From Arabidopsis thaliana (lineage: Eukaryota; Streptophyta; Magnoliopsida; Brassicales; Brassicaceae), in contig NC_003071.7 of assembly GCF_000001735.4 (NCBI RefSeq), positions 15,785,443-15,849,442 on the forward strand: a DNA stretch of 64,000 nucleotides, read 5' to 3'. Position numbers and translations under genes: made by a program. Shown here one piece after another: positions 44,584 to 64,000 of the stretch (position 1 is its first letter; every line of letters starts with the position of its first letter). A model generated the notes under the pieces. The model was not told the origin of the DNA, ran no database searches, and saw only the letters and a program-made list of their open reading frames with translations.

Positions 44584-44636
44584 ATGTTCTAGTTTTTTTT
44601 TTTTTTTTTTTTTGGACAAACAGATGTTCTAGTTTT
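44584..44636 (-). repeat. T-rich micro-insert bounded by a 13-bp direct repeat
   Basis: ATGTTCTAGTTTT at 44584-44596 recurs at 44624-44636. Between are a long T run and GGACAAACAG, that is, a minus-strand retroposon tail with about ten bases of body. Confidence 0.5.
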
Positions 44637-45490: not shown

Positions 45491-45520
45491 CACGTGACAA
45501 TCTTGATCGCTCTATAAAAA
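45491..45520 (+). promoter_or_regulatory. G-box and TATA box of the small gene
   Basis: CACGTG (45491-45496, in GCCACGTGAC) is followed 17 bp later by TATAAAAA (45513-45520). The ATG lies 55 bp after the TATA box. This compact arrangement resembles ABA- or stress-responsive plant promoters. Confidence 0.6.
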
Positions 45521-45574
45521 ACCAAACCTGCTCTTCTTTGGTCGCTACAGCAAAAATAACAATAAACAAGATAA

Positions 45575-46552: not shown

Positions 46553-48300
46553 ATGGCAGCTCCGATTCGATTCTTTGAACTGAACACTGGTGCCAAGTTA
46601 CCTTGCGTCGGTCTAGGAACCTACGCAATGGTCGCGACAGCGATCGAACAGGCGATTAAGGTATCACCTTCGGATCAAACTTCGACCTTATTATTATGCC
46701 ATTGGATATAAAATTTAACTTTGACACTTTTCTTGTCGATTATTTTAGATTGGTTACAGGCATATCGACTGTGCTTCGATTTACGGAAACGAGAAAGAGG
46801 TAAATTTGCTATCTACAATATATTTTAATTTATCTCTCTTTAACCATAGATGTCATTTGACTGGTCATCAAATGTATTCTCTACAAGAGTGTATATTTAT
46901 TATAGTTTTTGAGGGTCATGGTGGAACAAGAATCTCACAGTAAGTGTAGCCTCTATGCTTCTAATGAAAGAGTTTTTTTTTTGGTATGATGCTTCTAATG
47001 AAAAAGGTATATGAATGTTTAGTTTGTGGGAACTAAATGTGTTCTGCTTTCTTCCTATTTTCGTTGTTCTCACACTATGATTGATTTCCATTTATTAGAT
47101 TGGTGGTGTGTTGAAGAAGCTGATAGGTGATGGTTTTGTGAAGCGTGAGGAGTTATTTATCACTTCCAAACTCTGGTTGGTGTTCTGTTTCTACCAAGAT
47201 TCTCTCTGGTCTGCACTGCACACACACACACATGTTCATGTTTTTTGTTTTGTTCTGTAGGAGCAATGATCATTTACCTGAAGATGTGCCTAAGGCACTG
47301 GAAAAAACGTTACAGGACTTACAGATTGACTATGTTGATTTATATCTGGTACATAACTTATAGCAAATGAATCTTGTTTACGTGTAATTTTTTCCATTTT
47401 GATGTGTTTTTGCTTTTGTTGAAGATACATTGGCCTGCGAGCTTGAAGAAGGAATCACTAATGCCAACACCTGAGATGCTCACAAAACCTGATATAACTA
47501 GCACATGGAAAGCAATGGAAGCTCTCTATGACTCTGGAAAAGCTCGAGCAATCGGTGTAAGCAATTTCTCGTCGAAGAAGCTTACAGATCTTCTTAACGT
47601 GGCACGTGTAACCCCGGCTGTTAACCAAGTTGAATGTCACCCAGTTTGGCAGCAACAAGGTCTTCATGAGTTATGCAAATCCAAAGGAGTTCACTTATCT
47701 GTGAGTATACTTACAAATTCCAAAATTTACTCTGTTTTTGCAAGTATGAATTAACGAAGATGCCTTTTCATCTGTTTTGGATTGATGATAGGGTTACTCT
47801 CCTTTGGGTTCCCAAAGTAAGGGAGAAGTCAGGCTAAAGGTTCTTCAAAACCCGATTGTTACCGAGGTTGCTGAGAAACTTGGAAAGACCACCGCCCAAG
47901 TGGCTCTCCGTTGGGGACTCCAAACTGGTCATAGTGTTCTACCAAAGAGCTCGAGCGGGGCTCGGCTCAAGGAGAATCTTGATGTTTTTGACTGGTCCAT
48001 ACCGGAAGATCTGTTTACCAAGTTCTCTAACATTCCCCAGGCAAGTTCTTTCATCTTTCTTTTTTTTTCTCGATGAATCAAACGACAATTTCGGTTTGGT
48101 TTCTTGTCATTATTGATCTTCCCTCCTCTTCACCATCTTGTTTTCCTCGACCCCATCATGTTGATTATAGATCGTCAAATAATGGATTTTACCAATCCCT
48201 ATAAATCTTGCAGGAGAAGTTTTGCCGAGCTACTGAGTTTGCGCATGAGACACACGGCTTCTATAAGACCATTGAGGAATTGTGGGACGGTGAAATTTGA
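46553..48300 (+). CDS. AKR4C8: Aldo-keto reductase AKR4C8
   Basis: NADPH-dependent reductase of sugars, steroids and reactive aldehydes (AKR family 4C). Seven exons (46553-46660, 46749-46799, 47099-47175, 47261-47348, 47425-47700, 47792-48040, 48214-48300) join in frame to 311 residues, the known length. The catalytic tetrad is present: D43 and Y48 in [14 protein letters not shown]77 in ITSKLW, H110 in IHWP. The coenzyme end IPKS-like signature reads [14 protein letters not shown]. Intron 6 has a GC donor in an ideal context, CAG/GCAAGT (48041-48042). Intron 2 holds a T-rich micro-insert with a 15-bp repeat, intron 3 a CA run. Exon 1 is four codons shorter than in the two paralogues. First of three tandem paralogues. 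Confidence 0.96.
46955..47003 (-). repeat. T-rich micro-insert in AKR4C8 intron 2
   Basis: ATGCTTCTAATGAAA at 46955-46969 is repeated exactly at 46989-47003. The 19 bases between are GAG, a T run, and GGTATG. This looks like a target duplication around an almost cargo-free minus-strand retroposon. Confidence 0.55.
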
Positions 48301-49445
48301 GATAATGTCCCTCCTTTCTACTTGTTTAACCATAAACCATTAAGGACATTGAAATAAATATGTTATCTTTTTATATTTAATCTTTCTATGAGAAAACACT
48401 AAACACATGCTTGGGATTTCATGATGTTTGGCAAATGTTGTTATTCTGCATTCTTCAAACAATAAAATGTTTTCAACTAGTTACAACTTCAACATGACAT
48501 AGTCGATAGAACCTAAGACTATTTCCTTAGTTCGCGTCGGGAATTTTCTACATACCGCAAAAAAATACGTGTATGATAAAAAGTAAAATTCAAACCTTAT
48601 TTCAAGACTAGGGAATTGCCTTCTTCTTTTTGATTCTATAACCTACTTACTGAATCCAAGGATCTTGATCAAATTAGTTATTTCTCATGAAAACTTACAT
48701 TAACATTTCCTTAAATAAATAAAAACTTACATTAACAATTTAAAACATCCATTGTGAAGGGCCGGAATGAAGCATTATAGTAAGTGTTCCCAATTATTCT
48801 CCAATTTTTTCTCTTCAAAATGAATTACTACAAGCTCTCAACCGTCGATTCTGCATTTCGCTCGGCGCAATATATATGCGTTCACCCAAAAACGTGTTAC
48901 TTGGACGTTCACACTCGAGATAATCTAAATGAACTCATATACACTCGAGATGTTATATAAACTCATCTACAATTTTGTTGTTGTTGTAAAACCACATAAT
49001 TTTTCTTATCACAAAGATTTTTGAAAAACCAATCACAATGTATAATATTCTACTATTGCTACATTATTTATGAAATATATAAAACTTTTTTCATAATATG
49101 AAATGAATTATAAATCATGTACGAATTGTCTTGGTTGTTTGAGAGTTCTGTCTTCTGTGATACGTGTGAATTGTGGACACAAAAAAGTGTCAGTCACACT
49201 CGAGATTAGCAAAGAGGAAATCTAAATGAACGAATTTAACTCAGATACGTCCACCGTCCATTGGTCCATGTAATGATCAATATCTGACGTGACAATATAC
49301 TAACTAAGAAAGTACTAGTATTACAGAAAGAAGAAATCAATTTGGCCACGAATCTCCCGCCTCTGTCGCTCTCTCACTTCTTCTCACCCTTTAATAGCTA
49401 GTGCCGAGTGCAGTGTGCGTTGAACAACCACCACCACATCTGATA
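48301..49445. other. Spacer between AKR4C8 and AKR4C9
   Basis: About 1.1 kb with no gene and no trace of a DC1 gene, unlike the spacers after AKR4C9 and AKR4C10. A 16-bp direct repeat, AAAACTTACATTAACA, flanks an A/T-rich 16-mer (48690-48737). AKR4C9 promoter lies at the right. Confidence 0.5.
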
Positions 49446-51217
49446 ATGGCAAATGCGATCACATTTTTCAAGCTCAACACCGGCGCTAAGTTCCCTTCGG
49501 TGGGTCTTGGAACATGGCAAGCTTCTCCTGGCCTCGTCGGTGATGCAGTCGCCGCGGCTGTTAAGGTTCGTCTTTCGTAGGTTGAACTTATTTGCTTCCC
49601 ATCTCTTGTAGATTCTTTGGTTTGATGATACCATACTCTGTTTCAATTGTTTTTCTTAGGTTTTTAATGCTTTTTAACTAGTTTGATGTTAACCCTAATT
49701 GCAGATTGGCTATCGTCACATTGATTGTGCTCAGATCTATGGCAACGAAAAAGAGGTAAAACAAAAACAGATGTTTAAATTAGCTAATCTGAAGTTCAAT
49801 CTTTTTGGTATGAGTTTTGTGGATCTTGAATTGATATTACATTTGCCCTTCAATTCTTGACTGTCTTGTTCCTCTTTAAGTGTCTTTTGATCTGCTTTAT
49901 TTGTTATCTTGTGGCTTTCCTCTGTTCTGTTTTGTTGTAAGATACTGAAAAGTGAATACTCCTTACCATGCTCAGATTGGGGCAGTTCTGAAAAAATTGT
50001 TTGAAGACAGAGTAGTGAAACGCGAGGATTTGTTCATCACCTCCAAACTCTGGTATCTTTTTTTCCCACCTAATCAAATGCATATTATGTGAAAAACTGT
50101 AGCTTTAATTATTCTTACATATATTCTCAAATTGTGTAGGTGTACTGATCATGACCCTCAAGATGTCCCGGAGGCATTGAACAGAACTCTCAAGGATCTG
50201 CAGCTTGAATACGTCGATCTTTATCTGGTACACATCACTTCCTTGTAACTTTTTTTGGAATGAATGTAAAATCTATTCAACCAAAAAACCTTGTTTACAA
50301 TATATCATTTTTTCATCGAAGTTGCTTAAAACAGAGTATTTAAATTGCAGAGCAAGTAACACTTCCTTGTAAAACTACTTCTTGTGGGGAAAGATTATTG
50401 TGTAACAGTTTTTTTTTGTGATCTTGTTGAAGATACACTGGCCTGCACGGATAAAGAAAGGTTCTGTTGGAATAAAGCCAGAGAACCTTTTGCCTGTAGA
50501 TATTCCTAGTACATGGAAAGCGATGGAAGCACTATACGATTCGGGCAAGGCACGAGCCATAGGTGTAAGCAATTTCTCTACCAAGAAACTAGCTGATCTC
50601 TTGGAGTTAGCTCGTGTTCCTCCTGCTGTTAATCAGGTCGAATGTCATCCTTCTTGGCGACAAACTAAGCTACAAGAATTCTGCAAATCCAAAGGGGTTC
50701 ACCTAAGTGTAAGCATTACTCGTCTCACCAATCCATTTACTTTCTACTTTATACATTCATTGAATGATTTTTTTTTTCCAGGCATACTCGCCATTAGGTT
50801 CTCCAGGGACAACATGGCTGAAGAGCGATGTTTTGAAGAACCCGATACTGAATATGGTTGCGGAAAAACTCGGAAAGAGTCCTGCGCAAGTCGCCCTTCG
50901 TTGGGGACTCCAAATGGGTCACAGTGTGCTTCCCAAGAGTACAAATGAAGGAAGGATCAAAGAGAACTTTAATGTTTTCGACTGGTCAATACCCGATTAC
51001 ATGTTCGCTAAGTTTGCTGAGATTGAACAGGTACGTTCTTAACATTTCATTGCATAAACTTAGTTGATCTGCCTCTGCTCTTCCTCGTCTTGATCGTGTA
51101 TTGATAGTAATTTATTTGGATTAAATGCAGGCTAGGTTAGTCACTGGTTCCTTCCTTGTTCATGAGACACTAAGCCCTTACAAGTCTATTGAAGAATTAT
51201 GGGATGGCGAGATATGA
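49446..51217 (+). CDS. AKR4C9: Aldo-keto reductase AKR4C9
   Basis: NADPH-dependent reductase reported in chloroplasts, where it detoxifies reactive carbonyls and reduces sugars and steroids in vitro. Seven exons (49446-49565, 49705-49755, 49976-50052, 50140-50227, 50433-50708, 50782-51030, 51131-51217) join in frame to 315 residues. Tetrad: D47 and Y52 ([13 protein letters not shown]), K81 (ITSKLW), H114 (IHWP). Coenzyme loop: [15 protein letters not shown]. Splice phases equal those of its neighbours, but intron 6 has a normal GT donor where AKR4C8 and AKR4C10 use GC. The coding start is right at the barrel ([13 protein letters not shown]), with no transit-peptide extension. Intron 4 contains a retroposon with a 13-bp target repeat; a related copy lies just past the stop. 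Confidence 0.96.
50236..50372 (-). mobile_element. Short retroposon (SINE or LINE 3' end) in AKR4C9 intron 4
   Basis: CACTTCCTTGTAA is repeated at 50236-50248 and 50360-50372 as a target duplication. Between lie 111 bp starting with a T run, i.e. a minus-strand element with an A tail. Its 3' part reads, on the minus strand, GGTTGAATAGATTTTACATT, shared with the element downstream of the same gene. No coding capacity; family not assignable by eye. Confidence 0.7.
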
Positions 51218-51268
51218 TTTTTAGCTGATCTAAATAATGGGAGCTAGGTTTCTCTCTCTGATGAACTA

Positions 51269-51384
51269 GTCAGTATCTTTTTTTTTTTAATGAATGTTAA
51301 ATTTATTCAACCAGAAAAAACCTTCTTTACATTATATGCAACTTTGAGTAGAACATGAAACTGTATTGTGCTTGTCAGTTTCTT
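51269..51384 (-). mobile_element. Related short retroposon 3' of AKR4C9
   Basis: GTCAGTATCTT (51269-51279) and GTCAGTTTCTT (51374-51384) form a 10-of-11 target duplication around 94 bp that begins with a T run. On the minus strand the tail-proximal part reads GGTTGAATAAATTTAACATT, nearly the same as the intron 4 element, but the distal parts differ, as expected for two independent 5'-truncated insertions. Confidence 0.6.
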
Positions 51385-51630
51385 ATGGATGTTATTTATT
51401 TACAAAGTTTTTTTTTATAGAAAAAGGATCTATTTATACAATTGCAATGTATTATAGTCATTTCAAATCGAAAATGTGTTGTTTGCATATGTCTGTGAAC
51501 ATACCAATATTCACATTGCATTAGAGCTAAAAAGTCCGAACGAGTATTCAAATCCTAAATAATGTATAAAATCAATATAATAAGGATTTAACCGAAATTG
51601 AATGTGTCATTAAGTTTTTCTTTTGGTGAA

Positions 51631-51668
51631 ATATTTCCTGAAAAAAAAGAAAGAATATATTTCCTGAA
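51631..51668 (+). repeat. A-rich micro-insert bounded by a 12-bp direct repeat
   Basis: ATATTTCCTGAA at 51631-51642 and 51657-51668 flank 14 purine-rich bases. Either a minimal retroposition scar or slippage. Confidence 0.4.
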
Positions 51669-51999
51669 TTTGTCAGTAAGTTGTAACATATTCTAAATCT
51701 CACATTGGGGAAAAGAAGGTATTTTCAAAAAGGATCATAATTAATCTCTTTGTCTAACCGAGTTTGAGATGGAACGATGATCAGATAAGCATATCAATTT
51801 ATAAACACTTTTGGTGGGTTTAAATCAACATTTACATCAATGAGTAAGCAATTAACTTGAAGTTATGCGATTATATATATGAGAATGAGACACATACATA
51901 ACAAATCATGTATGCATGTAACATGAAACAACATCAAAAAAAAAAAAAAAAAAACACCATAAGCCATCAACAAGTAAAAAAACCATCTCAAAGAAATTA

Positions 52000-52860
52000 T
52001 TATTCATACGTTGTCTCGCCATCGGTCATTGCTGCAACGGCCACCTGGGCCGCTATCGTAACAGTTGCAGTTGCTGCAGCCTTCATGGCTCCAAAGAAAC
52101 CTGGCTTTTTCTTTTTCGTTTTAGTCGTAGTTGAAACTGCACTGGACTCCGATTTTGGAGAACCGGAGTTCATGTATGGATGATGATTTTGTTGTTGATG
52201 TTGATGACCATCACCTTGAGGAGTGTATGGCCCAGGCTGATGATTCTGATGTTGATGTTGATGTTGATGACCACCACCTTGAGGAGGGTATGTCTCAGGG
52301 TGACCTATAGACTCTGTTTTTGGAGAACCCGAATTCATGTATGGATAATAATTCTGATTCTGAGGTTGATAACCACCACCTTGAGGAGGGTATGGCTCAG
52401 GCTGACCCATATGTGGATAGCCATATGGGATTCCTTGACCATACTGGTGTGGTGGCGATGGCTGTCCCGCATGGCCATGCAGGCTTCTCTGCTTCGTAAC
52501 CAATAAATCCGGAGACGAGGCATGCATTGGAGCGTATGTGCAAAGCGGGTGAGCTTCAAAACTGCATTGCCTACATTTGTAGAACATCCCTTGGATAGAA
52601 ACTCGGCAAACATAGCACGAGCGTTCGGTCATGTGACCGTTGAACAGGCTAAGCTCATGATCAGGACCGTGACATGAGTTTAAGAGAATCGAAGGACACG
52701 TGGCGCAATATTCATGGAGATCATAGTCGCAGTCGCTGCACCGGTAGGTCCTGCCTTCACCGTACAATTTGCAACCATCACAAGTGTATGTGCCAATACC
52801 GTTGACTTGAGTTAAGAGATGATTATGCGTGAAATGTTGAATCGTTTGCGGTATTGACAT
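52000..52860 (-). CDS. DC1-domain protein with repetitive His/Gln/Tyr-rich tail
   Basis: Single exon, 286 residues. Two DC1 (cysteine/histidine-rich C1-like) zinc modules: HFTHNHLLTQVNGIGTYTC through LHEYCATCP (about 8-56), and HELSLFNGH through AHPLCTYAP (about 69-111). The third module of the neighbouring paralogues is absent; a low-complexity linker replaces it, with YPPQGGG/YTPQGDG and a duplicated PYMNSGSPK-ES segment. The C-terminus is basic (TKTKKKKPGFF) then Ala/Thr/Val-rich. DC1 proteins are plant-specific; some bind lipids or act in defence and hormone responses, but no specific role can be read here. It converges on AKR4C9. W-box core TTGAC at 52973-52977. Confidence 0.92.
   Translation of the reverse strand: MSIPQTIQHFTHNHLLTQVNGIGTYTCDGCKLYGEGRTYRCSDCDYDLHEYCATCPSILLNSCHGPDHELSLFNGHMTERSCYVCRVSIQGMFYKCRQCSFEAHPLCTYAPMHASSPDLLVTKQRSLHGHAGQPSPPHQYGQGIPYGYPHMGQPEPYPPQGGGYQPQNQNYYPYMNSGSPKTESIGHPETYPPQGGGHQHQHQHQNHQPGPYTPQGDGHQHQQQNHHPYMNSGSPKSESSAVSTTTKTKKKKPGFFGAMKAAATATVTIAAQVAVAAMTDGETTYE
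52137..52420 (-). repeat. In-frame coding repeats in the first DC1 gene
   Basis: The DNA contains two related blocks, each with a PYMNSGSP-encoding segment and a proline/glycine (PPQGGG-type) segment, separated by CAT/CAA-type triplet runs encoding His and Gln. Triplet slippage has probably expanded and contracted this tail. Confidence 0.8.
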
Positions 52861-53395
52861 CCTTGAGGTTGGTTTGTGGGGAAGCCAAAAGGTTTTTTGA
52901 TCTGTATTCTCTTATCAAAGGAAGTGTATCCAAAATATGCAATAAAATTGATACAAATAGTTATTATTTTAGTTGACTTTGTTGGAGTTGAATGATCATA
53001 GGGAAGAATATGTCACTTGTGATATAATTTTTCTGTTACAAATTGTTGATATTATACATGAATTTAGAGTTGATATGTTCTTCATGACTGGTTTTTCAAT
53101 TCGGACGTGTCTTCAAGTTTTCAACTAGTATTACCATATAGTGTTAAATTAAATATTTAATGAAATATAAATGCAACTTTTTTATAAACTAAGCTAGTCC
53201 TCTGTTATGAATGTGTTACCGTAAATGTTGTGAAAGCCTATTTAAGGCCCAAATATGGGCTTAACCAAAGTCCATTATCACCCAAACTCGTATATACCAC
53301 AACATCACGTTAAGCCTCAGTGAAGTCTCAGTGTCGGCTAATCAGAGGATCAGTCTCAGTGTTGATTTCAGGTGATAAATCTCTTTGCTTTGACA
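52861..53395. other. Divergent promoter, first DC1 gene and AKR4C10
   Basis: 535 bp between the two start codons. Contains TTGAC (52973-52977) on the DC1 side. The rest is AT-rich with no repeat recognised. Confidence 0.55.
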
Positions 53396-55310
53396 ATGGC
53401 AGAGGAAATTAGATTCTTTGAACTCAACACCGGAGCGAAGATACCATCCGTCGGTCTAGGAACGTGGCAGGCCGATCCTGGTCTCGTCGGAAACGCTGTC
53501 GACGCTGCTGTGAAGGTTCCGTCTTTTGATTTGCGATTTATTGTAACTTGTTAGTGACGTATAGCTAAATTGATTCTATTCTACTACTTAATGCAGATTG
53601 GTTATCGTCACATTGATTGTGCTCAAATCTATGGCAATGAAAAAGAGGTAATCCAAAAACTCATCTTTTGAGATTGTGGTTCTGGTCTTTGTATAAGTTT
53701 TTGTACGTTAAGCTGAATTGATTCAAGGAAAGTGTTGTTCTTAAGTTCAATTTTGATACTTCTGTCATGCTACTTGATTTTTATTGGGACTTAAAGTAAA
53801 AAGTTATGTTCTTGCTTATGCGTTGTGTTTTGTATCACAATGTGATTGCTTAAGACTGTTGTTCTATTGATATGTTCTGTGTTGTTTTGAATTAAGCAAT
53901 TAGAGGCTAACCTCTCTCTATATATTATTGTGGTTACTTGACAATGTGAATTATTTAGTGACTGGAAAAAACTTCATGTCTTCTTCCTTGTGTAGATTGG
54001 GTTAGTCCTGAAGAAATTGTTTGATGGTGGAGTTGTTAAGCGTGAGGAAATGTTCATCACATCCAAACTATGGTATTCTGCATCACTATGGTTTAAATGC
54101 TTTAATAGTTTTTTTTTAATCAGTTGTCAAGTCTATGTAGCTTCTAACCTGGTTACTTGTTCATATGAAAGGTGTACTTATCATGATCCTCAAGAAGTGC
54201 CTGAGGCACTTAATAGAACTCTACAGGATCTGCAGCTTGACTACGTCGATCTGTATCTCGTAAGTAATATATTTGAAAACGTTGTTTTGTTTGTCTATGT
54301 GCTTTTCTCTTCAGCATAATATCAATCCATTTTGGTACTTCAGACTTATTGATGTGGTTTTAACTACCAATATTATCACTGCAATTTTTAAAAGTCTCAA
54401 GGCTAGTGTGATATATTGTTCAAACATCTAAACTCCTTTTACTTGATTTCTTATACCGATTTGTGGAACCATTTCGATTGACTAATAGTTGTTTTGATTC
54501 TTTTGAAGATTCACTGGCCTGTTAGCCTCAAGAAAGGATCTACTGGCTTTAAACCAGAGAACATTTTGCCAACTGATATTCCTAGCACATGGAAAGCAAT
54601 GGAATCACTCTTTGATTCAGGCAAGGCCCGTGCTATTGGTGTAAGTAATTTCTCCTCAAAGAAACTCGCAGATCTCTTGGTGGTGGCTCGTGTTCCTCCC
54701 GCTGTTAACCAGGTGGAGTGTCACCCTTCATGGCAACAAAACGTGCTCAGGGATTTCTGCAAATCTAAAGGCGTTCATCTCTCAGTATGTAGAGCAAACA
54801 TGTCTATATCCTTTATGAAAAAACTAACAAAAGATCTCGGAAATTAAACATGACTTGATATTTTTTTAGGGGTACTCTCCTTTGGGTTCTCCAGGAACAA
54901 CGTGGCTAACGAGCGATGTTTTGAAGAACCCTATTCTTGGTGGTGTTGCTGAGAAGCTCGGCAAGACTCCTGCACAGGTTGCATTACGCTGGGGTCTCCA
55001 AATGGGTCAAAGTGTTCTTCCAAAAAGCACCCATGAAGACAGGATCAAACAGAATTTCGATGTTTTCAACTGGTCCATACCCGAAGACATGTTATCCAAG
55101 TTTTCTGAGATTGGACAGGCAAGTGATTTTCCGCACATTGTAGTCCATATAGGTCAAAGAGCGTTCTTTGTTTTGCTCACACACTTGGGTTATCGAATAT
55201 TGAAGACGTGTGTTTCAATGTTGCAGGGTAGGTTGGTGCGAGGCATGTCATTTGTTCATGAGACGAGTCCATATAAGAGTCTTGAAGAACTCTGGGACGG
55301 TGAGATATGA
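53396..55310 (+). CDS. AKR4C10: Aldo-keto reductase AKR4C10
   Basis: Seven exons (53396-53515, 53597-53647, 53996-54072, 54172-54259, 54509-54784, 54870-55118, 55227-55310) join in frame to 314 residues. Tetrad: D47 and Y52 in [14 protein letters not shown]81 in ITSKLW, H114 in IHWP. Coenzyme loop: [15 protein letters not shown]. Closest to AKR4C9 in exon plan and sequence, one codon shorter in the last exon. Intron 6 uses a GC donor, CAG/GCAAGT (55119-55120), like AKR4C8. Its 3' portion, from exon 6 on, together with the following DC1 gene, is the template of the decayed copies at 56840 and 59453. Function as for the group: reduction of aldehydes and ketones with NADPH; the exact substrate is not visible. 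Confidence 0.95.
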
Positions 55311-55596
55311 GACTCAGCTGATTTGATTGTCATAGATTTGTCATTAGTAATGCACGTTGTTTCATTACAAAGGTACAACATTTTACTTATAAACTCCCTC
55401 CAGCAGTTCCACGTGAAAAGACATTAATGTTCTAATTATACTGAATTGATGATCCATTATTACGAAGTTAGTATGGTAAGTTTCGTATAATTAAAGATGG
55501 TAACCAGTACATTTTTAACAAAACAAATATTGCATCATCTAACGAGAAAGAAAGCAAAGATAACGGCGTGGCGTTAGATCCCAACCGTTAGAGCCA

Positions 55597-56385
55597 TCAA
55601 AAGCACCCGTTAAGGACTTCGACAGCTGGCCCAGCAATGATGTTGCAAACGACCCCAACAGTTAAATCCATCAAAATACTAAACATTTTTCTTCCTTTAC
55701 TCCGACCCGGTTCTTGAACCTGACCTTGATTTGCATATCCGTGAACCTGACCTTGATTTGTATATCCGTGATTGTAATAAGCATGGTGGTAGTAATACTC
55801 AGAATGGTAAAATTGCGGTTGTGGTGACCCAAAACACCTTTGCTGTATCTTCGTTGCTGCTACCGACGCAGATGAACTAATGCATTCCATGTGAACATCT
55901 AACCCGCATGGACCGCATTTGTACCGCCAAGATCGGATTGCACCGCGGCAAACCATGCAGATGCTGCTAGCTCCCCACTGACTCAGCTCTAAGAGATGGG
56001 CCGGGTGAGGGACGTGTCTTACGTGCTGAGGAAGCTGCGTGCACAGTGGGTGAACATCAAAGCCACAAGGCTCACATTGGTAATAGAGCCCCTCGGCTGA
56101 TTCATCGCATATGTCGCACATACGTTTGTTCTGGTGCGTATGCTCTGGTCCTCTAAAGACTAGCCGGAGCTCGTGCTGCGGATGCATAAAGGTGGCGAGG
56201 GTAGAGGGGCACGTGGCACAATGATCGTGAAGATTGTAGTCACACCGGGTGCAACGGTAGGTCTTCCCAAAGCCGTAGGTTTTGCAGCCATCGCATGTGA
56301 ACTCACCATATCCGTCAACCTTCGTTAATGGATGGATATGGGTAAAATGTTGGACTACTAGCTGTTCTGGCCTCGATGAAGACAT
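55597..56385 (-). CDS. DC1-domain protein (three C1-like zinc modules), copy A
   Basis: Single exon, 262 residues. Three DC1 modules: HFTHIHPLTKVDGYGEFTC through LHDHCATCP (about 12-60), HELRLVFRG through HPLCTQLP (about 69-121), and HPAHLLELS through VHMECIS (about 128-170). All zinc-ligand Cys/His positions appear present. A Tyr/His/Gly-rich linker with NQGQVHGYANQGQVQ leads to a basic-hydrophobic tail, RKMFSILMDLTVGVVCNIIAG. The 252-residue copy B (57504-58262) is its near twin. It converges on AKR4C10. A TATA-like CTATAAAG lies on the minus strand near 56436-56443, and the upstream block has two W-box cores (56693-56697, 56707-56711). Confidence 0.93.
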   Translation of the reverse strand: MSSSRPEQLVVQHFTHIHPLTKVDGYGEFTCDGCKTYGFGKTYRCTRCDYNLHDHCATCPSTLATFMHPQHELRLVFRGPEHTHQNKRMCDICDESAEGLYYQCEPCGFDVHPLCTQLPQHVRHVPHPAHLLELSQWGASSICMVCRGAIRSWRYKCGPCGLDVHMECISSSASVAATKIQQRCFGSPQPQFYHSEYYYHHAYYNHGYTNQGQVHGYANQGQVQEPGRSKGRKMFSILMDLTVGVVCNIIAGPAVEVLNGCF

Positions 56386-56529
56386 CTTGGTTGTTTTTTT
56401 GTTGTTTTCTTGAGAAAGGTTAGGATTTAGAGAACTTTATAGACCATTCCCGAGCATTGTTTGGAAGATAAGTAAGAACATTTTGATTACTAGTGTCTAG
56501 TGGTTACAAAATAGAAATTGTCGTTAGAC

Positions 56530-56760
56530 CATTTCAGATCAATAATAACTTTTGTTCACTTGTGGTTACAAAAATATAAACTTTTGTTCACTTGTGGTTA
56601 CAAAAATATAAACATTTGTTCACTTGCGCTCCTACGAATAATAACTTTAACTCAGTCGTCAGAAACTACTACAATGTGGTAGAGCAGTTTAGTTGACATA
56701 GGCTAGTTGACTTCTTTTTTAAGCCACTGTTCTATTTTTTAATGATCAAAGATTAGGTTC
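56530..56760 (-). promoter_or_regulatory. Conserved DC1 upstream block with W-box pair (copy A)
   Basis: Contains CACTTGTGGTTACAAAA in two tandem copies plus a partial third, CTCAGTCGTCAGAAACT, GTGGTAGAGCAGTTTAG, and two TTGAC cores 14 bp apart (56693 and 56707). The same order recurs upstream of copies B and C. TTGAC(C/T) is the WRKY W-box; WRKY control is inferred. Confidence 0.65.
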
Positions 56761-56839
56761 AAGGTTTTCCGAGTAATTAAGAAATTTACGATTATTTTAT
56801 TTTTTCTCACCGTTAGTTGCACTCAATTTGGAATTAAGT

Positions 56840-57165
56840 AAAACTCCTGCACAAGTTGCACTACGCTGAGGTCTCCAAATGGGTCAAAGTGATCTTCCAA
56901 AGAGAACTCATATACACAGGAGGATCAAAGGAATTTCGGTTTTTTCAGTTGGTCCATATTCAGAAGGAAAAAAAAAACTTCGGGCCGTCGCACCCATGCC
57001 CACAGGTAGGTCGAAATTGTTTGTTTTGCTCATGGGCTCGGGTTATCTAAAATGGAAGATGTGTGTTTAAATGCTAAATGGTAGGTTGGTGAGAGGCATG
57101 TCATTTGTTCATGAGACGAGTCCTTGTGAGAATCTTGAAGAACTCTGAGACGGGTGAGATATGCG
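56840..57165 (+). pseudogene. Remnant of an AKR4C10-like gene (exons 6-7)
   Basis: Begins abruptly at KTPAQVALR within exon 6; the preceding bases match the upstream flank of the DC1 gene, so this is a duplication junction. The tryptophan of [11 protein letters not shown] is a TGA stop. Past [13 protein letters not shown] the frame is lost. Intron 6 is still recognisable (TGTTTTGCTCA, GGGTTATC, GATGTGTGTTT), but the acceptor AG before GGTAGGTTGGT is gone. Exon 7 ([11 protein letters not shown]) survives with its W codon also TGA. Exons 1-5 are absent, so it was never a full gene here. Confidence 0.9.
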
Positions 57166-57503
57166 ACTTGTCATTGGATGTGACAGATAATTGTCATAGA
57201 TTTATTAGTAATGCAACTTGTTTCTTACGGAGAGGCACATTTACTCATATAAACTCTCTCCAGTGGTACTCCTACGTACGTTTTCAATATTTTATTCAGA
57301 AAAGACATTAGATATTGATGTCCCTGATGCTTATTTAATTACTACGAAGTTTGGATGCCAGTTATCATAGTAATTTGTGTATATTGAAGATAGTAACACA
57401 TACATTTTGTTAATTATTGTATGAACCATGGAAAGAAAGTAAACATAAACATTATTTAGAGAAAAATACATATATAATGGTGTGACGTTGGAGACGTGCC
57501 ATT

Positions 57504-58262
57504 TCAAAAGCCTCCCATAATGACCTGGGCGGCCGGCCCAGCGATGATATTGCAAGCAACCCCAACCGTCAGAGCCATCAAAACCTTATACATCCTTCTC
57601 CCAATACTCGGACCCGACTCTTGAACCTGACCTTGATTTATATATCCGTAATTGTATCCGTGATTGTAATAAGGCTGGTGATATTGAGGAAACTCAAATT
57701 GCTGTCCAAAACCCCTTTGCTGAATTCCCGTTTCTGCTACCGAGGTAGATGAATCAACGCATTCCATGTGAACATCTACCCTGCATTGACCGCACTTGTA
57801 CCGCCAAGACTTGATCGCACCGCAACAAACCATGCACGAGTTGCTCGCTCCCCCTAGACTCAACTCTAAGAGATGGGCCGGGTGAGGCACGTGTCTCACG
57901 TGCTGAGGTAGCTGCGTGCAGAGTGGGTGAACGTCGAAGCCACAAGGCTTACACTGGTAATAGAGTCCCTCGGCTGATTCGTCGCAGATGTCGCACATAC
58001 GTCTGTTTTGGTGCGTCTGTTCTGGTCCCTTAAAGACTAGCCGGAGCTGGTGCTGTGGATGAATAAAGGTGGCGAGGGTAGAGGGGCACGTGGCACAATG
58101 ATCGTGAAGATTGTAGTCACACCGGGTGCAACGGTAGGTCTTCCCAAAGCCGTAGGTTTTGCAGCCATCGCATGTGAACTCACCATATCCGTCGACCTTC
58201 GTTAATGAATGGATATGGGTAAAATGTTGGACTACTTGCTGTTCTGGCCTCGACAAAGACAT
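57504..58262 (-). CDS. DC1-domain protein, copy B
   Basis: Single exon, 252 residues, near-twin of copy A over the three zinc modules (HFTHIHSLTKVDGYGEFTC; HQLRLVFKG; HPAHLLELSLGG). The modules start near residues 12, 69 and 128, with all Cys/His ligands apparently kept. The linker is shorter and Gln/Tyr-rich (QQFEFPQYHQPYYNHGYNYG). The tail, RRMYKVLMALTVGVACNIIAG, retains the basic-hydrophobic form. Upstream it carries TATA-like CTATAAAA on the minus strand near 58335 and W-box cores at 58568-58572 and 58582-58586. The AKR portion of this repeat unit is the remnant at 56840. The frame is clean, so the gene is likely functional. Confidence 0.92.
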   Translation of the reverse strand: MSLSRPEQQVVQHFTHIHSLTKVDGYGEFTCDGCKTYGFGKTYRCTRCDYNLHDHCATCPSTLATFIHPQHQLRLVFKGPEQTHQNRRMCDICDESAEGLYYQCKPCGFDVHPLCTQLPQHVRHVPHPAHLLELSLGGASNSCMVCCGAIKSWRYKCGQCRVDVHMECVDSSTSVAETGIQQRGFGQQFEFPQYHQPYYNHGYNYGYINQGQVQESGPSIGRRMYKVLMALTVGVACNIIAGPAAQVIMGGF

Positions 58263-58426
58263 CTCGTGTTAGAGGTACTTATATCTCGTTTTTTTTTTTT
58301 TTTTTTTCTTTAGAAAGGTTAGGATTTAGGAATTTTATAGACCATTCCCAAGTATTTTTGTAGGATTGTTTGGGAAACAACCAAGAAGTTTTGATTAGTT
58401 TTCGTTACAAAATATAAAATTTGGTT

Positions 58427-58670
58427 AGACAATTTCAGATAAATAATAATTTTTGTTCACTTGTGGTTACAAAAGTATAAACTTTTGTTTACTTGCGCTC
58501 TACGTATAATAACTTTAACTCATTCGTCAGAAACTAGAAAGTACTAGAATGTGGTAGAGCAGTTTAGTTGACATATGCTAGTTGACTAGTCAATGTGACT
58601 TATTTTTGAGCCACTAATCTATTTTTTAATGATCAAAGATTGGGTTCAAGGGTTTTTTTCGGAGTAATTA
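58427..58670 (-). promoter_or_regulatory. Conserved DC1 upstream block with W-box pair (copy B)
   Basis: Same landmarks as copy A: one CACTTGTGGTTACAAAA copy, CATTCGTCAGAAACTAG, GTGGTAGAGCAGTTTAG, then TTGAC at 58568 and 58582 (14 bp apart) plus an inverted GTCAA at 58589. Confidence 0.65.
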
Positions 58671-58734
58671 AGAAGTCTTACGATTATTATTATTATTTCC
58701 CCCCACCATTAGTTTCACTCAGTTTTGAATAAAA

Positions 58735-59452
58735 TTTGCTGCCTGTTGGGGGGGTCATTGTTGATGCCAGGAGGTCCAAACTCAGCAAGAAAAAGGAACA
58801 ATTAGCTACTATCAATATATCAATAAGTTGATCGAGACAAAAGGAAATGGCCAAATAATGGATCATATATAACTAGGTCTAGTATATCGACGGTTTTGCT
58901 TCTTAGAATTAGTAACACAACTTGATATTTTATGCTACTCAATGAATTTATATAAGATATAATTAGTAAATTAAACATGTCATTGAAGTCATAAGCCAAT
59001 TTAAAGCTAGTGAAAATGTTAAGAATTAAAGAGAACCGGCTAATACATTGGCTGCTCTTTTAGGAACAAATTCATTGGACAGAACAAATACCTTGACTGA
59101 TTCCATAGAGTTCGAGGTCTTGTTTCCCGACTTGCAATGCATATCAAAAATGGTGATATTGTATTAACAATTATCGTGGTTCTGTTTTTTTTTTTTTTTT
59201 TTTGCTAAACTTCCTGGTTTTATATAACTTAGGTAAATAATACATAGTTTATAATGGAATGTGCCACAGCAACAACGAAATCCGGGGTGAACAAGCCGGG
59301 TTCGAAAACAATAAATTAAATATGTAAGAGTTAGAGAGAAGAGCCTCCAACACCATAATTGTTCTGTTATGTTCATTTTGCTAATGGCTAAATCATGTTT
59401 ACTTTGTAGTTATCAGCGTTCAACAACGACATTGACATGTTGCAACGACTAA
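58735..59452. other. Insert-like spacer in the third repeat unit
   Basis: The flank shared with copy A ends near 58735, and unrelated DNA follows. It includes a G run (TTGGGGGGG), and a T run at 59187 that starts a stretch ending near 59355, with GTTCTGTT at both sides; that might be another minus-strand retroposon of about 170 bp, but the repeat is only 8 bp. No gene seen. Confidence 0.4.
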
Positions 59453-59675
59453 ATCGTGTTCCTTTTGCTATAGATGACGACATGATGAAACATCATTTGG
59501 ATGTTTATTGTTGGTCCATACCTGAGGACATGCTATCCAAGTTTTTTTAGATTAAACAGAGGATTGATGATTTTTTTTTTTTGGATTGATGAATTTTATT
59601 ATTTTGATTGATGATGAATTTGGTTTTGGGAATTTAGTTTTGGTTCGTGTCAGTTAGGTTGGTTGCTCACCTCTT
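59453..59675 (+). pseudogene. Second AKR4C10-like remnant
   Basis: 59453-59565 matches the end of AKR exon 6: ATGATGAAACA-CATTTGGATGTTT, TTGGTCCATACC and GAGGACATGCTATCCAAG correspond to the codons for [24 protein letters not shown] follows SK-FF where the intact gene reads SEIGQ. The exon boundary ACAG is followed by intron-like DNA holding a T-run micro-insert, and GTTAGGTTGGTTG near 59653 may be the start of exon 7. It is more decayed than the 56840 remnant, hence probably older. Confidence 0.75.
59561..59592 (-). repeat. T-run micro-insert in the AKR remnant
   Basis: GGATTGATGA occurs at 59561-59570 and 59583-59592 with twelve T residues between and nothing else. The intact paralogues lack it. 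Confidence 0.45.
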
Positions 59676-59739
59676 AAAATTTTTGTATATTTATTGTATT
59701 GAATAAAAAAAAAAAAAGCAAACATACAATAGAGAAATG

Positions 59740-59896
59740 AAACATAATAGCATAAATCTCCCAGCTGTAAGTGCTGGATTCGATGCCCGTTGAGAGGATC
59801 TCTTCTTCAAAAGAGATGAATTAACTCCTGCTTCGATATAACGCTTTCAGATTTGAACTTCCAGATATTCAAAAAAAAAAAAACATAATAGCATAA
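59740..59896 (+). mobile_element. 5'-truncated SINE-like retroposon with 16-bp target duplication
   Basis: AAACATAATAGCATAA is repeated exactly at 59740-59755 and 59881-59896. The 125 bp between end in an A run. Near the head, GGATTCGATGCCC resembles the tRNA B box (GGTTCGANNCC), with no A box before it, so it looks like a tRNA-derived SINE cut within the tRNA part. It lies 11 bp past the stop codon of the minus-strand DC1 copy C, so it must fall in that gene's 3' UTR. Confidence 0.75.
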
Positions 59897-59907
59897 CAAT
59901 AAAGAAT

Positions 59908-60609
59908 TCAAAGCATTTCTGTGATGATACTGCTGACAACTTCAACTGTAACATCCTTGAAAAATCTAAACACTCTTCTTCTTTTACTTGGACCTGACAC
60001 TTGACCTTTATTTGTATGTTCATAATTGTGTATGCCTCCGCATTCATCATTATAAGGCTGAGGATCCTGAGAAGTGTTCAAATCCATTTGCGGTTCTGTA
60101 GCAGCTGGTGCAGACGAATTAACGCATTCCACGTGAACATCCAGCATGCATGGACCGCACTTGTACCGCCAGGACAAGATTGCGCCTCGGCAAACCATGC
60201 ACGTGTTGCTCGCTCCACACTGACTCAGCTCTAAGAGATGAGCAGGATGAGGCACGTAGCTCACGTGCTGATGATGTTGTGTGCAGAGTGGATGGACATC
60301 GAAACCACAAGTCTCGCAGTGGTAATAAACCCCCTCGACCAATCTGTGGCAGATGTTGCACATATTTTCTGATCCATTGACAAATAGCCGGAGCTCATGT
60401 TGTGGATGCATAAAGCTTATGAGGGTAAAGGGACAGGTGGCACAATGGTCATGAAGAACATAGTCGCACGGGGCACATCGATAGGTCTTCCCAAAGCCGT
60501 AGGTTTTACAGCCACCGCATGTGAACTCGCCATATTCGTCAACCTTCGTTAGTGGATGGGTATGGGAAAAATGTTGGACTACTTGTTGTTCTACACTCGA
60601 CGAAGACAT
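59908..60609 (-). CDS. DC1-domain protein, copy C
   Basis: Single exon, 233 residues from the ATG at 60609; the frame is open upstream to a TTG at 60714 but no ATG lies there. Three DC1 modules (HFSHTHPLTKVDEYGEFTC; HELRLFVNG with a shortened inter-module segment; HPAHLLELSQCG), ligands apparently kept. The linker is short and acidic rather than Tyr-rich (PQMDLNTSQDPQPYNDECGG). The tail RRRVFRFFKDVTVEVVSSI keeps the basic part but is less hydrophobic. More diverged from A and B than they are from each other. A SINE-like insert lies immediately past the stop. Confidence 0.9.
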   Translation of the reverse strand: MSSSSVEQQVVQHFSHTHPLTKVDEYGEFTCGGCKTYGFGKTYRCAPCDYVLHDHCATCPFTLISFMHPQHELRLFVNGSENMCNICHRLVEGVYYHCETCGFDVHPLCTQHHQHVSYVPHPAHLLELSQCGASNTCMVCRGAILSWRYKCGPCMLDVHVECVNSSAPAATEPQMDLNTSQDPQPYNDECGGIHNYEHTNKGQVSGPSKRRRVFRFFKDVTVEVVSSIITEML

Positions 60610-62098
60610 CTCGTTGTTTGTTTGTTTTTCGTTGAGAGTGGTTAGGCTTTGAGAGAATGAATGGTGGTATAAAAAGAAACTGTTGTTTTGACCATTCCAA
60701 TCTTCATTTGGCAAACAAGTAAGAATGGACGTTCAGTTGTGGTTACAAAATTAATAAATTTGTTTGACAATTTCAAGTCATAATAACTTTGTTCACTTGT
60801 GGTTACAAAAACATAAATTATTGGTCACTTGTGCTCCGACGAATAATAACTTAACTCAGTCGTTAGAAACTCATACAACGCGGTATAGCAGTTTCGCTGA
60901 CATCAGGCTAGTTGACTGACGACGTACCCTATAAGCCTGTTCTAACTACATATAATGTGGCCTCTTTTTTGAGCCACTGTTTCTCTCTCTTTTTTTGAAA
61001 TGATCTTCAAGGACTGAGTTCCATGGTTTTTCTGGAATAAATAACTTTTGCAGAGTATTAGTTAAACTACAAGAAATGCAACGTTCTCCTACAATAAAAA
61101 TGGTAAAAATTTCGTAGAAAATATGCGTTTCTTTCTAATTTCCTACAACAAAAATGGTATAACGTTATACTATTATTTTATTTTGTGAAATTTGTAAAAC
61201 TACATTTATGTCGGTTGAATTTTAGTGTAATAACGTGAACCTTTATAAGAAAGTAAACTAGTGATATGTAGTAGAATCCATAGTAAAAAGTTCCACTTTG
61301 ATTTTGAGTAGAAATGTAAGGAGAATCCATATGATCATCATTCATTGAAACAAAATGTATGAAGTCAAAAAAGTAATAAAAGAACTGTATAAACTATAGG
61401 ATTTGCTTCGTTTTTTTATTTTTCTTTGGGAACTTGCGGCGCCTAAAAAAAGATTAGAACTATTCCAAGCAATTATGACGGAGAATCGTGATATCGTATA
61501 TTATTCCAGACAGCATTTTATATTCAACCATGTTGTCGTTGTAATATCCAATTAGCCAAACTTCAATCAAAGCATTATCATGCTTGACATGTTTGTAAAT
61601 ATAATATATTTTCAGTCTAAAACTAGTTATAGAAACAAATGTTAAAAGAATAATAGTTGTCTTTATAACCTTGATCAAAATGTACTTTCGTTTGTTATTA
61701 GTATTTTTAGATTTAGAATAAACCATATAGATAAGATAAGAATATGTAAATAAAAAATAAAAAAGTGGTCAAGTGTAACTCAACTAACAATTAAAAACCG
61801 GTAAAACCAATTCTACATAAATTTAAATATTAAAACATTAGTACATATCTATATTGAATGATTAAAAATGAACATTAAATATAATAAGGATAGAGACTTT
61901 CCCACCTCTTAAGTCAGTCAACTCGTCGAAAGTCAACTAATAACGGTGTGACACTCTGTCACAAATCAGAAGAGTAATCATATATACAACTCTCATTCTG
62001 ATATTCGGAAGAAATGTCACTATACTTTCTTTTTGTCATTATATTTCCAACACCAAACACAACTCTCTGTCTCTCTCTCTGAATCAAGAACGGTAAAG
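60610..62098. promoter_or_regulatory. Divergent promoter region of DC1 copy C and the inverted DC1 gene
   Basis: About 1.5 kb between start codons. The copy C side (60762-60930) keeps CACTTGTGGTTACAAAA, CTCAGTCGTTAGAAACT and TTGAC at 60912, with the first W-box changed to CTGAC. The plus-strand gene side has inverted W-box cores GTCAA at 61917-61921 and 61932-61936, 15 bp apart. The middle, 61040-61900, is AT-rich and shows nothing recognisable. Confidence 0.55.
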
Positions 62099-62971
62099 AT
62101 GGCTCCAAGGACACTAAAACGGCACACCGTTCAGCATTTCACGCATATTCATCCATTGACAGAGTTTAACAGCATTGGTGATTTCATCTGCGACGGCTGC
62201 AAAACCTACGGCTCAGGCAAGACATATCGATGCGAACCATGCAACTATGATCTCCATGAGTATTGTGCCACATGTCCCCTTACCCTTCCAACTTTCATTC
62301 ATCCCCAGCATGAGCTCAGCCTCGTCGTTCGAAAACAACAGTCCACACGCCAAAACGACCGCGCGTGTGACATATGCGACGAGTCGGTAGAAGGGTTGTT
62401 CTACAGATGCAAGATATGTGAGTTTGACGTGCATCCTCTCTGCACGCAGCTGCCTCAACACGTGAGGCATGTCCTTCACCCTGCCCATCACTTAGAGTTT
62501 CGCCCCTCGGGAGCTAGCACGTGTATGGTTTGTCACGGCCCGTGCCAATCTTGGAGGTATAGGTGTGAGTTATGTAGATTCGATATCCATATGGAGTGTA
62601 TCCTAGCCGTGTGTAACACGTCACCTTCTGACCAGACCGATGCGTCTGGTACTAAGAGCAGAGGACTCAAGCAACAAGGTGGACAACCGTCACCGCCCAC
62701 GCAGTGGCAACAACCACATTTTGGTTACCCGTATGCGTATGGGCCGATGGGTCAACAACAACCTTATTTTAATTATCATCCCTATAATTACAATAATTTC
62801 AATTACATGAACGGGTATAATATGAATCCGGGTCAGGTACCAATGGCTGGGGCGAGTCAAAACTCGACTCCGAGTAAGGGCTGGAGAATGTTTACGATTG
62901 CATCGAAGCTAACAATGGGAGTTGTCTCTAGTGCAATATTTGGGTTTCCCATTACAAATCTCATGTCGTGA
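62099..62971 (+). CDS. DC1-domain protein, inverted copy
   Basis: Single exon, 290 residues from the ATG at 62099; an upstream in-frame TTG is rejected as start because ATGGCTCCA lies in better context. Three DC1 modules: HFTHIHPLTEFNSIGDFIC through LHEYCATCP, HELSLVVRK through HPLCTQLP, and HPAHHLEFR through IHMECILA, zinc ligands present. The linker is long, Gln/Tyr/Asn-rich (PYFNYHPYNYNNFNYMNGYN). The tail, GWRMFTIASKLTMGVVSSAI, retains the family form. Oriented opposite to the other four, so it arose by an inverted duplication or later inversion. Paired W-box cores upstream. Confidence 0.93.
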   Translation: MAPRTLKRHTVQHFTHIHPLTEFNSIGDFICDGCKTYGSGKTYRCEPCNYDLHEYCATCPLTLPTFIHPQHELSLVVRKQQSTRQNDRACDICDESVEGLFYRCKICEFDVHPLCTQLPQHVRHVLHPAHHLEFRPSGASTCMVCHGPCQSWRYRCELCRFDIHMECILAVCNTSPSDQTDASGTKSRGLKQQGGQPSPPTQWQQPHFGYPYAYGPMGQQQPYFNYHPYNYNNFNYMNGYNMNPGQVPMAGASQNSTPSKGWRMFTIASKLTMGVVSSAIFGFPITNLMS

Positions 62972-63828
62972 CTTTTGTTTTCTTTCTTCTAATTTCGGCG
63001 CTAAAGTATAGTTACAACTTGCAAGAGTTATTTGGTGAATCCATACCCGAAAAAAAACACTAATTACAATGGTGAGTTTGGTAATAATCAATATTAGTGG
63101 TAAATTTGGTTTTCTAAAAATTGTGTGATGACATATCAGTGGTATACAGAGATATCAGATCTGATCAATATTTTTTTGACGAAAATGTAAGAAACAAATT
63201 CTTTCAACTATTTTTTTTTTTCCTGGAACATAAAACCATCGTGGATGGAACTATTAGCAAATGCAAATTCCAAAATAATCAAAATAATTACGCATCTCCT
63301 AATAGGAAATACTTGACGGAGTTCTGTGACTCATGTCTTGTGCAGTCATTTTTATGGATAGGACCGGATAATAACCAGAGTACAAGAATTCTAAGTTTTC
63401 TAACAGTACTTCTTTACATATTTGGATTTATTCTTGTTGTTCAATTTGTGACTTAGTCTCATCGTTAAGTAAGATGTTACGTAGGCATAAATTATGTGAA
63501 TTTCTTTTCGGTCAAAGTAACCAATAATTTGCATGGATGTTCTAGTATGGCTCTAAAACATTCATCCAAACTACATCATTGGTATTATGTTATTGCCATG
63601 GTATATTCAGATGGATGATAATAATTGTCACATATATAGCGTTATTGTGAAATAGGATACCAAACCAACTTCATACAAGAACTACAAATTATATACATAA
63701 ATAATCAACAAATAATATATAGACTACTAAAATTCAAAATGCTTCAGAAAACTAAGAATTTTCACATAAAATAAATTCTAGGAATTTTCCAAACGAGAAC
63801 CATTCTAAAAGATGTGAAACACCGAAGC
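62972..63828. other. Convergent 3' flanks
   Basis: AT-rich DNA between the plus-strand DC1 gene and the minus-strand glycine-rich gene. No gene or repeat recognised. Confidence 0.5.
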
Positions 63829-64000
63829 TCAGCAACCTCCTCCGCCTCCGCCTCCTCCTCCTCCTCCTCCGCCTCCACCTCCATCCCCACCGCCACCACC
63901 ACCACCACCAAAACCTCCACCACCTCCATCACCGCCAAAGCCACCCCCATTTGCTCCATCACCTATTTCCACATCTTCACCTCCGCCATCCTCTCCTCCT
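63829..64000 (-). CDS. Glycine-rich protein, C-terminal part (cut by window edge)
   Basis: The minus-strand frame stays open from the right edge to the TGA at 63829-63831, encoding about 56 residues. The visible part is acidic glycine-rich sequence (DGGGEDVEIGDGANGGG), then blocks of FGGDGGGGGF and long Gly runs with occasional Asp, ending in a single Cys. The repeated GGN codons make the DNA C/T-rich on the plus strand. The start lies outside. Glycine-rich proteins include wall-structural and signalling types; nothing visible decides between them. A competing minus-strand frame over the same bases gives a Glu/Val-rich peptide and is likely a shadow. Confidence 0.7.
   Translation of the reverse strand, partial: GGEDGGGEDVEIGDGANGGGFGGDGGGGGFGGGGGGGGDGGGGGGGGGGGGGGGGC

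Follow-up and report, generated by a model that had tools for sequence, protein, structure and literature searches.

Local clusters of divergent C1 (DC1, PF03107) genes are known from plants. The literature counts 15 DC1 genes among the Arabidopsis thaliana genes with flanking repeats (PMC2869330) and describes clustered DC1 genes on tomato chromosome 1 (PMC10707348), and tables published for tomato place AKR4, DC1 genes and ATG1 together (PMC10857258, PMC10707348, PMC9865680). The linkage of AKR and DC1 genes is probably old and the neighborhood ancestral, in which case a functional pairing would be unneeded. No paper in the literature searched combines tandem duplication with both an aldo-keto reductase and a C1 domain family protein. 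The closest described process is tandem duplication with a partial neighboring gene as cargo. The locus analyzed here resembles it in forming a contiguous direct repeat with one exonic and one intergenic breakpoint, and in keeping the complete gene while the partial gene decays; it differs in the particular genes and in its two occurrences, and in nothing more. As in other plant DC1 clusters, the copies termed A, B, and C each contain three C1_2 stretches, but this array bears stubs of an unrelated enzyme gene. These stubs (remnants B and C) differ from AKR4C8–AKR4C11 in being 5'-truncated pseudogene fragments that encode no enzyme.

Architecture of the array

The window, a 64,000-nucleotide stretch of A. 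thaliana chromosome 2, contains AKR4C8, AKR4C9, and AKR4C10, all intact and in tandem; AKR4C11 is located on chromosome 3. Blocks A and B were delimited by self-BLAST and block alignment.

49446..51217, plus strand: AKR4C9, intact
52000..52860, minus strand: first DC1 gene (D0), adjoining AKR4C9, with two C1_2 stretches and a long, Gln/His/Pro-rich tail
53396..55310, plus strand: AKR4C10, intact, 7 exons, 314-aa frame (exon chain from splice sites)
54966..56839, no strand: block A, the end of AKR4C10 (from within exon 6), DC1 A, and ~450 bp upstream
55597..56385, minus strand: DC1 A, 262 aa
56186..56316, no strand: 131-bp tract matching 58063-58193 in DC1 B at every position
56840..58733, no strand: block B, which repeats block A in tandem
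56840..57163, plus strand: AKR remnant B, covering some of exon 6 plus intron 6 and exon 7, with stops and frameshifts
57504..58262, minus strand: DC1 B, 252 aa
59458..59559, plus strand: AKR remnant C, comprising just the end of exon 6, with an in-frame stop (tblastn E 8e-7, blastn E 9e-15)
59908..60609, minus strand: DC1 C, 233 aa
62099..62971, plus strand: DC1 E, inverted, belonging to the same local DC1 group but older

Self-BLAST of positions 44001-64000 aligns 54963-56837 with 56840-58733 (74.0% identity over 2018 columns, E 0) and contains the diagonals predicted to run from AKR exon 6 to the DC1 upstream flank. The A/B repeat unit measures ~1.88 kb, and its copies are contiguous and head to tail, with noncoding flanks included. 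Its left border falls inside AKR4C10 exon 6 (54870-55118), near codon 237 of 314, and AKR intron 6 (which has a GC donor in AKR4C10) and the DC1 upstream flank are both found within the repeat in the block alignment. The earlier note had described AKR4C10 and DC1 A as a convergent pair, followed to the right by a tandem copy of the block from exon 6 to the DC1 A flank and then by a third, more eroded AKR remnant with DC1 C. This description holds: 286 bp separate the two stop codons, blocks A and B share 74% identity, and further right both the DC1 C region (60110-60917 versus 55868-56712, 73.7%, E 1.5e-157) and the AKR remnant preceding it (59474-59559 versus 55033-55118, 79%, E 9e-15) match block A. 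Block C is less complete than the A/B repeat and separated by 0.7 kb.

Adjacent head-to-tail copies with noncoding flanks, and the absence of retroposition marks, identify the A/B repeat as a tandem segmental duplication. Retroposition is rejected because the intron and flanks were copied, and chance similarity of the AKR pieces is rejected by the BLAST E values. A mobile repeat carrying DC1 is not supported: in a genome search that skips very common words, the 748-bp segment 58733-59480 has one genome match, and the module upstream of the DC1 genes has three, all inside the DC1 array. Taken as a whole, the best explanation is very probably local growth of a gene family through two tandem segmental duplications, one after the other, that carried unequal cargo; their order and dates rest on paralogue distances. 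The A/B break may have been joined via little homology (1–3 bp, judged by eye from two diverged copies), and copy C presumably arose in the same manner as B.

Reductase remnants and retained DC1 genes

The A/B segment starts about three-quarters of the way through the AKR4C10 coding sequence (945 bases), and on this reading the breakpoint fixed the asymmetry between DC1 and AKR. The duplicated segment includes an entire DC1 gene and the region upstream of it, whereas the reductase contributes just a 3' stub that lacks a promoter. Block B holds approximately the last 237 of the 945 coding bases, the last quarter, and was never a whole reductase; because the segment lacks the promoter and exons 1–5, the stub was probably a passenger, non-functional from birth. 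Exons 2–5 of AKR4C10, which hold the Asp-Tyr-Lys-His tetrad, precede the start of remnant B, and neither remnant encodes the complete barrel with catalytic tetrad of a functional AKR4C enzyme. By their stops or frameshifts and their loss of essential exons, both are duplicated (non-processed) pseudogene fragments, and the AKR stubs bear deletions as well. In-frame stops are located in the exon 6 part and in exon 7 of remnant B (the latter in 'LEEL*DG') and in remnant C ('SKFF*IKQ'), where recognizable AKR sequence is confined to the end of exon 6. The original left end of block C is eroded, so truncation at birth is, for this copy, something that we infer. The 26 differences in the exon 6 part are distributed as 16 on remnant B, 2 on AKR4C10, and 8 that are not assignable. 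Exon 7 of remnant B carries 7 mismatches in 84 positions, below expectation (P 0.019 on the DC1 clock and 4e-5 on the spacer clock), and plain decay does not fully explain this low divergence. No AKR pieces were detected beside D0 or E by tblastn at E<=10 in 44001-64000.

Purifying selection acts on DC1 A, B, and C, all of which remain intact. Each is a single open frame and scores above the Pfam cut-off of 26 for PF03107 (C1_2), with 93.7 bits for A, 89.7 for B, and 89.6 for C. Pairwise w is 0.34–0.40 for A-B, 0.28–0.32 for A-C, and 0.33–0.39 for B-C, and w=1 is rejected for each pair (2dlnL 16.8, 36.0, and 24.0, respectively), for A, B, and C jointly (2dlnL 59.9, codon-model fits on local genes only), and for every one of the 8 DC1 pairs (of 10 possible) to which the model was fitted. 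The A-B coding indels (9, 6, and 15 bp) are each in frame; the A/B spacer plus intron has 9 gap openings in 377 aligned columns. DC1 dS (0.29–0.33) disagrees with noncoding K (0.48–0.55). The A-B dS of 0.29 is larger than the synonymous divergence between A. thaliana and A. lyrata, which is about 0.13–0.15. The 131-bp identical tract suggests that DC1 A and B have undergone gene conversion (by permutation, p 0.0006 with polymorphic sites and a marginal 0.034 with third positions only). The literature searched yielded neither expression data for DC1 A or C nor a paper on At2g37800, and At2g37820 appears in PMC9614460 in an accession list only.

The earlier note had read the array as an AKR/DC1 module in which the reductase half decays and retention appears aimed at DC1. 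The duplication, the intact DC1 genes, and the AKR pieces decaying while the DC1 frames stay open are all borne out, and a dN/dS well below 1 rather than near it agrees with retention aimed at DC1; a whole two-gene module is not supported, as the A/B segment holds only a 3' AKR stub. Selection would keep the DC1 coding sequence together with its own promoter. A conserved module lies upstream of each copy, with borders set after inspecting the alignment.

56526..56720, minus strand: upstream module of DC1 A, ~195 bp
58441..58627, minus strand: upstream module of DC1 B, 81% match
60788..60917, minus strand: upstream module of DC1 C, with 130 bases matching at 87%

Module identity between A and C is 143/160 (89%), compared with 125/254 (49%) in spacer plus intron 6 (Fisher p 4e-18) and 32/49 (65%) at fourfold sites, a clear excess. 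The excess over fourfold sites is small for A-B (148/162 versus 53/62) and for B-C (137/171 versus 32/46). The five 500-bp DC1 upstreams were scanned for W-box, as-1, P1BS, root-hair element, G-box, and ABRE. Cores of the short 5-mer TTGAC occur at approximately -307 to -331 not just in A, B, and C but in E too, and at -117 in D0. P1BS and ABRE are found in D0 only, and G-box and root-hair element are absent from all five.

Alternative explanations

It is scarcely credible that the DC1 copies are decaying too and owe their intact look to young duplications. Their C-terminal tails are indeed fast-evolving and vary in length (A-B tail w 0.42, 0.21–0.87), yet every frame is open at dS of 0.29 to 0.73 and w=1 is rejected in the eight fitted pairs. 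In neutral simulations with gaps, an open frame survives in 0 of 4000 runs under each of three settings (0.65% of 4000 with substitutions alone), and for the domain part this explanation is refuted. We also consider it very unlikely that the stub was kept as a regulator, with DC1 B readthrough containing antisense AKR4C10 exon 7 and damping AKR4C10 via small RNAs or antisense pairs; if true, DC1 amplification also installed a dampener on the neighboring reductase. Exon 7 of remnant B is 92% identical and, as noted, less diverged than expected, a 31-nt exact match (57093-57123) lies antisense to DC1 B ~380–410 nt past its stop, AKR4C10 shares 13 perfect 21-mers with remnant B, and the native AKR4C10/DC1 A pair is also convergent. 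Remnant C, however, has zero perfect 21-mer matches, and the under-divergence of remnant B is modest on the DC1 clock and could be caused by conversion.

A functional AKR+DC1 module could instead have been duplicated whole, with AKR4C9+D0 as the oldest unit and repeated loss of the reductase, only DC1 dosage being useful. The AKR(+)/DC1(-) order is found twice (AKR4C9/D0 and AKR4C10/A), the tomato tables cited above list ATG1 and DC1 genes in one region with an AKR4 gene, and the local DC1 genes fill the top five ranks among 148 listed genome matches to DC1 A (388 candidates, 146 scored), E ranking fourth (66% identity, residues 9-175) and D0 fifth (56%, residues 10-123). We nevertheless regard this history as unlikely. 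Block B had no reductase to lose, its AKR part being a 3' stub, and does not represent co-duplication of a whole AKR and a DC1 gene with equal ages. For the chromosome 3 paralogue AKR4C11, the 40 kb read contain no match to DC1 at E<=1, and the two pairs share no spacer beyond AKR exon 7 plus ~12 bp. The synonymous distance is 2.7 for D0-DC1 A (lower limit ~1.45) versus 1.20 for AKR4C9-AKR4C10 (~0.94–1.72), as point estimates with overlapping limits. Three placements of D0 are statistically equal in the AU test (p 0.68, 0.16, and 0.43), D0+(A,B,C) having the lowest value and none being rejected. A rooting attempt grouped the outgroups L013, L014, L015, L018, L023, and L036 (95/91), with low support inside the local group. 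AKR4C9+D0 may be an older unit of this kind, an idea that the sequence supports by gene order and by no other feature.

Implications for the DC1 family

Growth by successive tandem segmental duplications makes this array a case of ordinary gene duplication, in which a specialist would find no surprise. It provides a clean example of how the survivor of a tandem duplication can be decided by breakpoints and not by selection between the partners. The gene duplicated in full, along with the region upstream of it, is retained, and the one severed by the breakpoint is left as a fossil. The AKR fossils aid in ordering the DC1 expansion, and the conserved module upstream gives a hint of what selection may act on in these uncharacterized DC1 genes.

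Tandem repeats of a truncated AKR gene and DC1

The loci are as follows (window positions unless a chromosome is named).

chr2:15785443-15849442, the window
49446..51217 (+), AKR4C9, reductase gene
52000..52860 (-), D0, first DC1 zinc-finger gene
53396..55310 (+), AKR4C10, intact reductase gene
55597..56385 (-), DC1 A
57504..58262 (-), DC1 B
59908..60609 (-), DC1 C
62099..62971 (+), E, inverted DC1 gene
chr3 19953238-19955171, AKR4C11

The earlier note had proposed a tandem AKR/DC1 module, and its predicted dot plot diagonals are present: self-alignment pairs 54963-56837 (block A) with 56840-58733 (block B) at 74% identity, and identifies the DC1 C region with a short AKR piece (block C) as a further repeat of block A to the right. 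In a three-way alignment, the A/B repeat begins inside AKR4C10 exon 6 and ends ~450 bp into the upstream flank of the DC1 gene; less is retained in block C (AKR homology from ~59458, DC1 C, and upstream homology to ~61 kb). As also claimed, the DC1 frames are all open (262, 252, and 233 amino acids in A, B, and C, each with three C1_2 stretches) and the AKR remnants hold stops and frameshifts. The locus is real and ordinary, a tandem duplication with a truncated passenger, and its original description was good.

PMC8695856 gives the AGI codes AT2G37760 (AKR4C8), AT2G37770 (AKR4C9), AT2G37790 (AKR4C10), and AT3G53880 (AKR4C11); together with the gene content, these mark the window as Arabidopsis thaliana DNA. 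Intron 6 starts with GC in AKR4C10 (55119) and AKR4C8 (48041), and with GT at the same site in AKR4C9 and AKR4C11. From chromosome order, we take At2g37780 to be D0, At2g37800 A, At2g37805 B, At2g37810 C, and At2g37820 E.

The AKR4C9/D0 gene order is compatible with an older unit of this kind. Self-alignment found no spacer similarity to the AKR4C10/A pair beyond AKR exon 7 and ~12 bp, and no AKR remnant was found adjoining D0 or E (44001-64000). The tree places D0 firmly in no group (AU p 0.68 for D0+E, 0.16 for D0+ABC, and 0.43 for E+ABC). D0 (52000-52860) has two C1_2 stretches versus three in its neighbors, and its internal repeats encode a PPQGGGHQ-type tail.

Selection and likely sequence exchange among DC1 copies

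The DC1 copies are kept: ω (dN/dS) is below 1, indels are in frame, and neutrally simulated copies nearly always lose the frame. The dN/dS check proposed earlier gave pairwise ω of 0.28-0.40, with ω=1 rejected.

Pairwise divergence of DC1 copies (likelihood by our own implementation, dS limits from a coarse step search)
Pair; Nei-Gojobori dN, dS, ω; codon likelihood ω, dS, 2ΔlnL against ω=1
A-B; 0.109, 0.325, 0.34 (bootstrap 0.22-0.52); 0.40, 0.29, 16.8
A-C; 0.226, 0.806, 0.28; 0.32, 0.73, 36.0
B-C; 0.231, 0.703, 0.33; 0.39, 0.63, 24.0

IQ-TREE codon models gave lnL -1734.5 with free ω and -1764.4 at ω=1 for A+B+C (222 codons), -2352.6 and -2419.5 with E added (221 codons), and -2147.1 and -2206.3 for all five genes (157 codons). 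Constraint is stronger in the C1 core (ω 0.20-0.27) than in the tail, where ω is 0.30-0.42 and its limits are wide. All A-B and A-C coding indels are multiples of three, and the B-C nucleotide alignment has indels of 10 and 2, together 12. Neutral simulation left the frame intact in 0.65% of runs with substitutions only, and in none of 4000 runs under any of three settings that included gaps.

Upstream of DC1 A lies a conserved module (56526-56720), found in three places, all in this array, when the genome (119.7 Mb, 7 contigs) was searched.

Identity by region (in brackets for the second and third regions, Fisher p of the comparison with the module, the module borders having been picked after inspection of the alignment)
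Pair; module; spacer + intron 6; rest of upstream region; core fourfold sites
A-B; 91% (148/162); 64% (4e-12); 84% (0.026); 85% (53/62)
A-C; 89% (143/160); 49% (4e-18); 56% (3e-13); 65% (32/49)
B-C; 80% (137/171); 48% (1e-11); 60% (8e-6); 70% (32/46)

Given these fourfold identities, the module is clearly above fourfold sites for A-C only. It contains TTGAC cores near -307 to -331, a 5-mer of a common kind. Within the otherwise diverged genes, 131 bases are identical between DC1 A (56186-56316) and DC1 B (58063-58193; p 0.0006 over 203 polymorphic sites, 0.034 over 98 third positions), a tract that points to likely gene conversion between them.

Fate of the AKR remnants

Remnant B corresponds to AKR4C10 codons ~237 to 314 (153/249 bases of exon 6, intron 6, and exon 7). 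It has no promoter and no exons 1-5, and therefore lacks the catalytic tetrad. Judged from this sequence, it could not have functioned as a reductase on arrival in block B. The claim that the reductase half decays thus holds for the stops and frameshifts, but the block B copy probably held only an AKR 3' piece from the start. The AKR remnant in block C is recognizable only as the end of exon 6.

The 26 differences in the exon 6 part (16 on remnant B, 2 on AKR4C10, and 8 assigned to neither) fit neutral decay (21 to 32 expected). The sole loose end is exon 7, where 7/84 sites differ although 14 to 22 differences were expected (DC1 clock, P 0.019; spacer clock, P 4e-5); conversion with AKR4C10, or function, would explain this. 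The exon 7 remnant (57083-57163) is 92% identical to its AKR4C10 counterpart, matches it exactly over 31 nt, and lies antisense to the DC1 B gene, downstream of its stop.

Age and meaning of the AKR-DC1 neighborhood

dS is 0.96 for AKR4C10-AKR4C11, 0.95 for AKR4C9-AKR4C11, and 1.20 for AKR4C9-AKR4C10. Relative to AKR4C10/4C11, which we take to be a whole-genome-duplication pair, C split at ~0.7 and A/B at ~0.3 by likelihood dS (~0.8-0.9 and ~0.4 by Nei-Gojobori). E and D0 parted from A earlier (dS lower limits ~1.25 and ~1.45). On chr3, 11 kb past AKR4C11, lies a gene related to the one at chr2:15852016-15856014, the latter presumably the ATG1-type kinase AT2G37840. DC1 was either lost from this partner segment or never present, since 40 kb of chr3 near AKR4C11 holds no DC1 match at E<=1.

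A stress-response role for the local DC1 proteins is plausible. Phosphate deprivation is reported to induce a set of plant genes that includes At2g37805 (by order DC1 B; PMC10039930), and At2g37820 (by order E) appears in tables of defense-priming genes (PMC10861594) and of root-hair differential expression (PMC4458573).

A tomato GWAS table lists Solyc09g011240 (AKR4), Solyc09g011260 (C1 protein, assigned to AT2G37810), and Solyc09g011320 (ATG1, assigned to AT2G37840) as candidates around one SNP; the interval, which holds many genes, is a locus for root phosphate (PMC10857258). Together with the phosphate-starvation induction of At2g37805, this is a lead only. According to a DC1 survey, Solyc09g011260 and Solyc09g011270 lie ~8-10 kb apart (PMC10707348), and according to an AKR survey, Solyc09g011240 is collinear with AT2G37760 and AT3G53880 (PMC9865680). 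Because these AKR4, DC1, and ATG1 genes are grouped in tomato, the AKR-DC1-ATG1 neighborhood probably predates the asterid-rosid split; the adjacency of AKR and DC1 genes in Arabidopsis is therefore likely an inheritance rather than the sign of a functional pair.
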